Source of the DNA: Phorcus lineatus
Lineage: Eukaryota > Mollusca > Gastropoda > Trochida > Trochidae
Direction: 5' to 3'
Assembly: GCA_921293015.1 (NCBI GenBank)
Contig: OV121093.1
Span: 2,147,027 to 2,211,026 of the forward strand
DNA: 64,000 nucleotides
The position numbers and the translations under genes are program-made. The notes below the pieces were generated by a model. The model saw only the letters and a program-made list of their open reading frames with translations. It ran no database searches and was not told where the DNA came from. Position 1 is the first letter of the stretch, and the number at the start of each line of letters is the position of its first letter. Positions 30,076 through 61,299 of the stretch are shown piece by piece.

Positions 30076-33000
30076 ATGGCTGGATATTTGTGCTTCTTGC
30101 TTATCGCAGGTAAACTAGTTTTACTTTTATTTTTTAGATTTGATGTCAGAGAAGGCTAACCGGAAATGTGTCCTTTTAAATATACATACTTTCTTTCTGC
30201 TGTAGTAGTATTATTAGTTGATAACTCTGAGGCACATGACTGTCCATGGGTATTCGTGCTTCCAAAAGTAACTAGATTTCCATGGAGGTTTGTTGTATGA
30301 GAAGTTGAATTAATATAAGAATAAACGTACTTATATACATTTGTACGTTATAAAGTAGTATTGTATTGTCATAACTGTCCAGCAAGATGTTGAAAAACAA
30401 TTTGGCTTCTTGCTAGCTGAAGGTCATTTCGTGAAACTGTGATGTGAAGTTTCCTATTATGGAAATGATGCCGAAAAATGAGAGAATATCCTTACCTGAA
30501 ATAATATACTTTCCGGAGCAGTAGGGTTTTGGCCGTCAAGCAAAGTGAGAGTTAGACATGTCTCCTTCTTGTAAATTAAATAATTTTGTTCCTAATGGAA
30601 CGAGAAGAAAAAGAAGATAATATAAGAGGAATTTGAATACGGAGCCCGGATATTTTTCACCTTCTGTGTCCAGCTTGCAATAGTTTAAGTACAATCATAT
30701 TAAGAATACTGGAGTATGTAGGATTACACATCAAGGAATCTATTCGTTCATTTGATATTGGCATAGTTAGTTGTTTTCATATCAACTTCAAAATAAGGTT
30801 TTACGAATATGGATAACATACCTGGAGACACTGGACAATAATTATGTGTTCCTTAAAAATACATTAAAACGATAATCTTTATATAATAAATGATAAATAT
30901 GATAGATAGGACATTTAAGAGAGAAATATGTAGTGTGTTTAGTCAATAACCATCTTCTTGTGCTAAAGATTATGTATAAATGTTTGTACAATTTACGATG
31001 TTTTCGCCATCATTTAATTAACAAACGTTGAGTACCCATATTGAAATGTTGTATAAAAGTCATGTCGTAAAATTACAATGGATTATTGTGTTACATATTG
31101 CTGCAACAACGTCAATCTGCTACTGTCTACCACAATATTAATTCAAAGATGGCTACTAAAATCATCGTTTGCATTGTTTCTGCGTGATGAGCACAAACGC
31201 AATATCTTCGAATAGTTTTAGCACTTCAAAATGTAAAGATTATTAAAATGAAATCATAGTGCAAATCAAAAGAAAAGTACTGTAAATTATTTAAAGAGAT
31301 CAGAAATAGAGATTGTCAACCACTCATTCTGCAAAAAAAATATCATTAAATTTTATTTCGAGTTTGAGATTTAAAGTTATTGTTTTATATATATATATTA
31401 TATTTATATAAAATTATGATATGTGTTATGGATTGTGGCGTCTTGTGATTTGTGGAGATTTGTGGAGAGTATTTGACGACAAAACCTCAAAACTATATAA
31501 GCTGATAGATCTCACGAACACGAAATTAAATTTTACCAATTTTAACTAACAGACGTTTACTAAAAACGAACCTTATATATTCCGTTAAGGTACCCGAATC
31601 TATTTCCATCTTAAACGATAATTGTATCCACACACTAAAATGGTCAGCTGATTTCGCTAAATACTTGATACTTTTGATACAGACAAGTTGGTCGAGTAAT
31701 GAGGCCTTTGATACTTTGAAAACAATCCATTAATTAGAACCAATTAACAATTGAATTCAACTAGTTCTTATTTGGGTCAATTTGAAAATTTTAGAATAAA
31801 GGGGTATAGTTTGACAAATTTCGACTTTAAATTATGTTGAAACATAAAGAACTTAACTTAATGGCCTAACTTATAAATGAAATTGAATATGTATATAATT
31901 ACATCTTCAAGACAAGCGCGTCAGCATTCTCTCTGACTTATAGAAAAGAACATGCATATATACCTTCATAAATCCAAGGTCCGCTGGCTAACTTTATGAG
32001 ACATGCAGATGTACATTATTATTAAAGTTAACATTAACATGATGATATTAGACGTGTGTCACCATAAAAAAAACGTCAAAAGACGAAGAAGGACGTTTTT
32101 GAAATTACCATAATTTTAGAGAAATATGGTTCCCACCTAGAGGCCATTAAACATCAATGTAACTGAGCATTATACACAGTTTTGTTATTACTAGAACCGG
32201 ACATATTGAATAGTGGTCTCCTTGACGTCGCCTAGCAGCAGTATGTTCGATCAGCCATTTTATTTGATTGAACAATTATTTTATTTTAATAGATATTTTA
32301 AGAGGAAACTTAGGATTTTAAAAGATTCAGCAAAAGATAAATTAAAAATCAAGTAACGTAGGAGCTTGGAGTTGTTAAACTAGTTTGTTTTGAGGACATG
32401 TAGCCAATTTCAGCAGGAAATCAAATTGTATGTTGCCTAAAACGTTATATCTGATTTTATACTGATTAATATTTGAATTCAAATCAATTGTTTTCAGTCT
32501 GAGCGATAAAAACAAGATTTTCTCTTTCTAAAATATTAGACATACAGACAGTAATCATAAGTCATATATCGAATTTATATATTAAAACACAAAAAACGAC
32601 ACATAGCCAACATTACTCCAACATGTTTCATTGATATCTTCAGGGAGTCTTACATTACTCCACCATGTTTCATTGATATCTTCAGTCTTCCAATATGTTG
32701 AAATAATGTTTGCTATGTGTAATTTTTTGTCTTTGAATATATAATACTGTATACTTGTGAACTTTTTTTCAAATATTGTCTATATACATTTGTATAGTAT
32801 ACAGACATTAATCATAAGTAGAACATACGTCTTAGTGCACCCCCATACACAACAGACGGAAATTCTTGTTTATTATAAAGAGGATATGACAAAACGATAA
32901 CACTTTCCATCCGACTTATTTCCTTAAATTGCCGTCGAGTCACGACTAGAAGATGTTCCCCTCACGACTACTCCGTTATGTCAGACGAGCTTGGAAAATA

Positions 33001-61299: not shown

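Follow-up and report, generated by a model that had tools for sequence, protein, structure and literature searches.

In elastin genes, exon borders are uniformly phase 1. Tropoelastin (ELN), a secreted low-complexity matrix protein, is described as made of single-exon domains, with 34 exons, lengthy introns and splice isoforms (PMC7947355). Among the secreted proteins of the SCPP family (amelogenin and others), a vertebrate family of mineralised tissue, most genes are described as having uniform phase-0 introns, so that exon skipping keeps the frame (PMC5118209). In the schistosome micro-exon genes (MEGs), about 75–80% of the coding sequence is reported to lie in symmetric micro-exons, and their products carry a signal peptide encoded by symmetric exons, mostly multiples of three, between long introns (PMC10526429, PMC4015677, PMC5825161). 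A frame-neutral layout of uniform phase in genes of secreted low-complexity proteins is already known from vertebrates and flukes. In Lymnaea, apparent alternative splicing is described for most candidate shell-forming proteins that contain repetitive low-complexity domains, and their basic Gly/Tyr-rich repeats have been proposed to cross-link through tyrosine (PMC6007483).

Here we describe a locus of the trochid sea snail Phorcus lineatus within a window of 64,000 nucleotides (the whole stretch of DNA analysed; contig OV121093.1 of assembly GCA_921293015.1, positions 2,147,027 to 2,211,026). We hold with good confidence that it is one gene for a secreted, mucin-like structural protein of about 870 residues with Gly/Tyr/Pro repeats, a tail encoded by micro-exons, and exons that are neutral to the frame. 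In a scripted rebuild, 20 exons on the forward strand between 30076 and 61299 splice to 2,661 nt, or 887 codons including the stop, and the frame is uninterrupted. All junctions are GT...AG, all 19 fall in phase 1 and each of the 18 internal exons has a length divisible by three, as the sequence-only reading had proposed, and the chain runs, again as proposed, from the ATG of a signal peptide recognised by inspection to a TAG followed by AATAAA. The features are as follows, with splice scores where they matter.

30003..30008, forward strand: TATA-box-like TATAAG, 73 nt 5' of the ATG (consensus match only, read in the sequence)
about 30 nt 3' of TATAAG, forward strand: start-site-like TCA triplet (likewise a consensus match only, read in the sequence)
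30076..30109, forward strand: exon 1, with the ATG and the first half of the signal peptide (11 residues); donor 3.8
36815..36847, forward strand: exon 2, 33 nt, end of the signal peptide with an AHA|QG cleavage-like site; found by the blind scan
40449..40514, forward strand: exon 3, 66 nt, both splice sites weak (-4.6 and -0.4); the least certain exon
44367..44390, forward strand: exon 4, 24 nt, found by the blind scan; its acceptor has the top score among 1,447 AG sites
45756..45818, forward strand: exon 5, 63 nt, found by the blind scan
45982..46011, forward strand: exon 6, 30 nt, found by the blind scan
46215..46319, forward strand: exon 7, 105 nt, Thr-rich, weak sites; in-frame alternative acceptor at 46209
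47318..47392, forward strand: exon 8, 75 nt, with a weak donor that scores below a phase-2 donor at 47345
49151..49783, forward strand: exon 9, 633 nt, Thr/Ser/Ala/Pro mucin-like; frame open over 49090-49800
50582..50617, forward strand: exon 10, 36 nt, found by the blind scan
51627..52775, forward strand: exon 11, 1,149 nt, possible three-helix head, PT linker and basic Gly-Tyr-Pro/Gln repeats
53093..53320, forward strand: exon 12, 228 nt, very basic (pI 11)
53831..53851, forward strand: exon 13, micro-exon of 21 nt, found by the blind scan
55014..55028, forward strand: exon 14, micro-exon of 15 nt, from the spliced model and splice scoring
55657..55683, forward strand: exon 15, micro-exon of 27 nt, encoding TPPSVIYM
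56094..56123, forward strand: exon 16, micro-exon of 30 nt, found by the blind scan
58208..58225, forward strand: exon 17, micro-exon of 18 nt, found by the blind scan
59042..59068, forward strand: exon 18, micro-exon of 27 nt, encoding TPDIIADL, open in phase 1 only; found by the blind scan
60574..60606, forward strand: exon 19, micro-exon of 33 nt, encoding TPAGVATIM
61286..61299, forward strand: exon 20, last codons and TAG; acceptor 6.7
61424..61429, forward strand: AATAAA polyadenylation signal, 125 nt 3' of the TAG; another lies at 61451

Eleven of the 18 internal exons are 36 nt or shorter, and the introns are long. Exon GC content ranges from 0.37 to 0.67 vs 0.26-0.38 in 18 of the 19 introns, intron 18 standing at 0.52. 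The start of exon 9 is uncertain, several phase-1 acceptors being available (49139, 49151, 49193 and others). The sequence-only reading had arrived at a frame of 893 codons, 18 nt longer than ours; the excess would correspond to tandem acceptors 6 nt upstream of exon 7 (46209) and 12 nt upstream of exon 9 (49139), both in frame and in phase 1.

By inspection, the encoded protein begins with a signal peptide. A region of 347 residues follows (exons 2-10), acidic (pI 4.05) and rich in Thr, Ser, Ala and Pro. Exon 11 contributes a 63-residue head, for which a single-sequence model predicts three helices (mean pLDDT 68), and then a basic repeat region of 320 residues (pI 9.8) with GYPP, SGT and Asn/Gln motifs; 11 of 24 Tyr residues stand after Gly. 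The mature chain has no cysteine, and the protein as a whole is Thr/Pro/Ser-rich and hydrophilic (GRAVY -0.45, 1% Lys). At its end, the eight exons 13-20, of 14-33 nt each, join into a hydrophobic tail of 61 residues. Within it, four units of TP, five residues and a hydrophobic residue at +7 lie in exons 15, 16/17, 18 and 19, an arrangement matched in 0 of 20,000 shuffles, for a motif picked after it had been seen; at least four TP pairs alone occur in shuffled tails at a frequency of about 0.0003. An earlier description of the exons as low-complexity segments and very short tails in place of folded domains is right for most of the chain, but the short tails form one segment with recurring units, and the head of exon 11 may fold. 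No family was matched by the 886-residue protein in Pfam (E up to 1) or NCBIfam (E up to 0.001), and PDB sequence searches with the exon-11 head and with exons 12-20 returned no match. A CUE-like identity for the exon-11 head was considered and dropped, since the Foldseek similarity of its single-sequence model was weak (best E 1.9, none at 0.001 or below).

We scored splice sites with generic, untrained matrices and ranked all sites in 30000-61500 (1,707 GT and 1,447 AG). Both sites score above zero in 14 of the 18 internal exons (2, 4, 5, 6 and 10-19); both fall below zero in exons 3, 7 and 9, and exon 8 has a weak donor. The matrices have a small positive control 3.5-7.6 kb past the end of the window (L002 3456-7602), in what we take, by eye, to be a beta-tubulin gene: its two introns give donors of 2.3 and 1.9 and acceptors of 8.5 and 7.2. 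Both are phase 0, so the neighbourhood is not phase 1 throughout.

A blind scan for exons of 12-150 nt whose two splice scores each reach 3 and that have any open frame, with the top candidate retained wherever several overlapped, returned ten candidates on the gene strand; nine are exact exons of the chain, and each of the nine is open in phase 1 and has a length divisible by three. As controls we took five stretches of about 111 kb together (the gene's reverse strand, the two strands of the 30 kb upstream and the two strands of the 10 kb downstream), which gave 3, 4, 7, 0 and 0 candidates, and of these 14, six were multiples of three and two were compatible with phase 1. With the threshold lowered to 2, the gene strand yielded 15 candidates, ten of them phase-1 compatible and nine exact chain exons, and the controls 38, eight of them phase-1 compatible.

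We also searched for whole chains from splice scores, without coding information, at three penalties. At penalty 7, the best all-phase-1 path on the gene strand scored 46.4 and had 12 exons, 11 of them exact chain exons; the reverse strand reached 0.5 in the same search, the two upstream strands 0.8 and 7.6, and 15 Markov sequences 1.8 on average (maximum 6.6). The controls are not silent: with free phases, the reverse strand of the upstream stretch, home to a C1q-domain gene, reached 20.4 at the same penalty. On the gene strand, the free-phase best path mixed phases at all three penalties (phase 1 in 23 of 45, 19 of 33 and 9 of 13 exons), scoring 48.6 at penalty 7, against 39.7 for the all-phase-0 path and 34.2 for the all-phase-2 one; across the search, all-phase-0 paths trailed all-phase-1 ones by just 7 to 44 bits. 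The scores lie this close since several micro-exons can be read in more than one frame. The splice signals thus support the exons, and the call of phase rests on the reading frames: phase 1 is the sole phase open in all 18 internal exons, and for exons 3, 9, 11, 12 and 18 every other phase is closed.

Junction 8/9 is the weakest of the chain: the two scores add up to -0.5 for the best phase-1 pair (47392/49193) and to -1.7 for a phase-2 pair (47345/49239). Junctions in phase 0 or 2 had been named beforehand as what would speak against a uniform gene; in the model all junctions are phase 1, but at this one a phase-2 pair competes. Further phase-1 exons were sought in 30110-59514 with acceptors of at least 4 and donors of at least 0. 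The three that came up (42676-42708, 47532-47579 and 48489-48593) have equally strong counterparts on three control strands (2, 2 and 5), and as they stand at control level we claim none. The last would offer 35 codons with two Cys behind a strong acceptor (6.4), without rising above that level.

Could open reading frames and splice-like sites have lined up here by chance, with no gene behind them? Short exons are easily found, and the three independent non-chain candidates with strong acceptors show as much, but the blind scan with its controls and the controls of the chain search count against such an origin, which we think extremely improbable. A division into two genes, the first made of the mucin-like exons 1-9 and ending in the frame of exon 9 at the stop at 49801, the second of exons 10 or 11-20 with an unseen first exon, would account for the weak exon 9 donor (-3.8), past which the frame runs on to that stop, and for the shift of composition at exon 11. 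Against it, exon 10 sits between the halves as a strong match of the blind scan (4.8 and 7.7), is in frame with both and carries on the TTPAPTTAP style of what precedes it; by eye, no signal-peptide-like start lies upstream in the frame of exon 11. Two genes are accordingly unlikely, and the single gene of the sequence-only reading is supported, with exon 10 joining both halves in one open frame of 887 codons. It is also rather unlikely that the locus is a micro-exon gene of the schistosome type, one that serves above all to vary its protein by skipping micro-exons. The signal peptide, the symmetric exons, the 11 short internal exons and the long introns recall those genes as described (PMC10526429, PMC4015677, PMC5825161), but exons of 36 nt or less supply 342 of 2,661 coding nt (13%), a figure that rises to 546 nt (21%) with all exons up to 81 nt, where the descriptions give about 75–80% for MEGs. 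In addition, the snail gene has large low-complexity exons, and searches with parts of exons 11-20 found no second copy.

The most substantial competitor, possible although we would not bet on it, is that composition and the history of the introns produced the uniform phase as a side effect, with no isoform design. In coding sequence rich in Thr, Pro, Ala and Gly, the proto-splice motif CAG| would mostly fall after the first base of a codon (ACA G|CN), and introns placed there would land in phase 1; phase-1 introns are moreover described as frequent near signal peptides (PMC7259759). The counts bear this out in part. Among CAG/AAG sites outside the junctions, 34 of the 44 in exons 1-10 are in phase 1, since residue pairs like Thr-Ala or Pro-Gly make CAG straddle two codons, and 15 of the 19 junction codons are GNN. 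In exons 11-12, however, just 22 of 61 such sites are in phase 1 (0 of 2 in exons 13-20), yet all nine junctions from exon 11 on are phase 1, and several of them (TGT|CA, CAT|TT, TCG|CA, TGA|AG) are not proto-splice sites. Composition is thus a large part of the reason for the uniformity in the first half, and a small part in the second. With 0.52, the phase-1 fraction over all CAG/AAG sites, and independence assumed, the chance of 19 phase-1 junctions in 19 is about 5e-6. The uniformity of phase is only partly surprising, and the composition test separates the part that codon usage explains (exons 1-10) from the part it does not (exons 11-20).

A single gene for a secreted structural protein remains the reading we prefer, and as far as tested it falls within the general kind of secreted proteins with uniform symmetric exons and in none of the families compared. 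Tropoelastin is closest in kind as described (PMC7947355), but the snail protein has no VPGVG, no KAAK-type motif and no Pfam match, and its hydrophilic, Thr/Pro/Ser-rich sequence lacks the hydrophobic repeats alternating with Lys-rich cross-link exons. SCPP genes share secretion and uniform intron phase in their description (PMC5118209); their introns are in phase 0, whereas those of the snail gene are in phase 1. The Lymnaea sfc genes are alike by description in being secreted and in having basic Gly/Tyr-rich repeats, and the mucin-like half and the micro-exon tail of the snail gene do not figure in the descriptions of the Lymnaea proteins (PMC6007483).

Across the genome, the exon-11 head, exon 11, exon 12 and the joined exons 12-20 each match this locus alone, and the joined coding DNA of exons 12-20 recovered only three pieces of the gene itself, so that no paralogue or retrocopy was detected for exons 11-20. 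Rfam and tRNA scans were empty. Three introns between micro-exons hold long tandem arrays, on the forward strand.

54142..54981, forward strand: intron 13 array, 49-bp unit in 17 copies, with nine exact copies of the branch-point-like TCTAAC; its end lies 32 nt upstream of micro-exon 14
56295..58060, forward strand: intron 16 array, 34-bp unit in 52 copies, a tandem repeat
59515..60376, forward strand: intron 18 array, 23-bp unit in 38 copies, acceptor-like, with 35 CATTAG, 21 of them followed directly by GTG

The branch-point-like and acceptor-like units in two of these arrays are only suggestive. In intron 18, the CATTAG units resemble 3' splice sites with a pyrimidine tract, and CATTAG with GTG has the look of an acceptor set against a donor. 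Elsewhere in the window, arrays at 9313-9781 (36-bp unit in 13 copies) and 684-1188 (63-bp unit in eight copies) have units that are multiples of three and are open in two or three frames. The C1q-domain gene lies at 13895-15968 on the reverse strand (PF00386, E 1.1e-15); an upstream frame gives it a signal-peptide-like start and looks coiled-coil. Reading-frame pieces at 6463-8201 recall a Tc1/mariner-type transposase by eye, and the two pieces scanned had no Pfam match. The genome paper for Phorcus lineatus flags a possible heterozygous inversion on chromosome 13 at about 1-6.14 Mb (PMC10444997); if the window (2.147-2.211 Mb) is on chromosome 13, it lies inside that interval.

Under the single-gene reading, transcription would start near 30034 and end near 61450. 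The product would be secreted, its acidic Thr/Ser/Ala/Pro half likely O-glycosylated, and the short segment after this mucin-like part is probably helical. The basic Gly-Tyr-Pro/Gln repeats would pack or cross-link through tyrosine, and the hydrophobic tail may mediate assembly; a role in mantle or matrix is suggested by analogy with the described proteins. With every intron in phase 1 in the model, any internal exon or exons can drop out or be duplicated with the frame kept, so frame-neutral skipping is possible in principle, as had been argued from the sequence. The phase-1 layout most likely let the gene grow by exon gain and tolerate skipping. Skipping is perhaps also used, in which case isoforms would differ in length and charge. 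A more elaborate version, which we consider speculative and quite improbable, would have micro-exon cassettes evolved independently in the snail: tiny phase-1 exons would add TP-led, perhaps helical tail segments, intron minisatellites would tune their inclusion, and repeat copy number would vary the matrix protein between individuals. If that were so, the branch-point-like units before the 15-nt exon and the 35 CATTAG before exon 19 would be tuning elements.

Among the matches listed in our literature searches we noticed no molluscan matrix gene with uniform phase or micro-exons, which is no proof of absence. Automatic annotation would be likely to miss or break such a gene because of its exons of 14-33 nt. 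A clear example from a mollusc, with its tail built from micro-exons, would suggest that extracellular structural proteins have come to this layout again and again.
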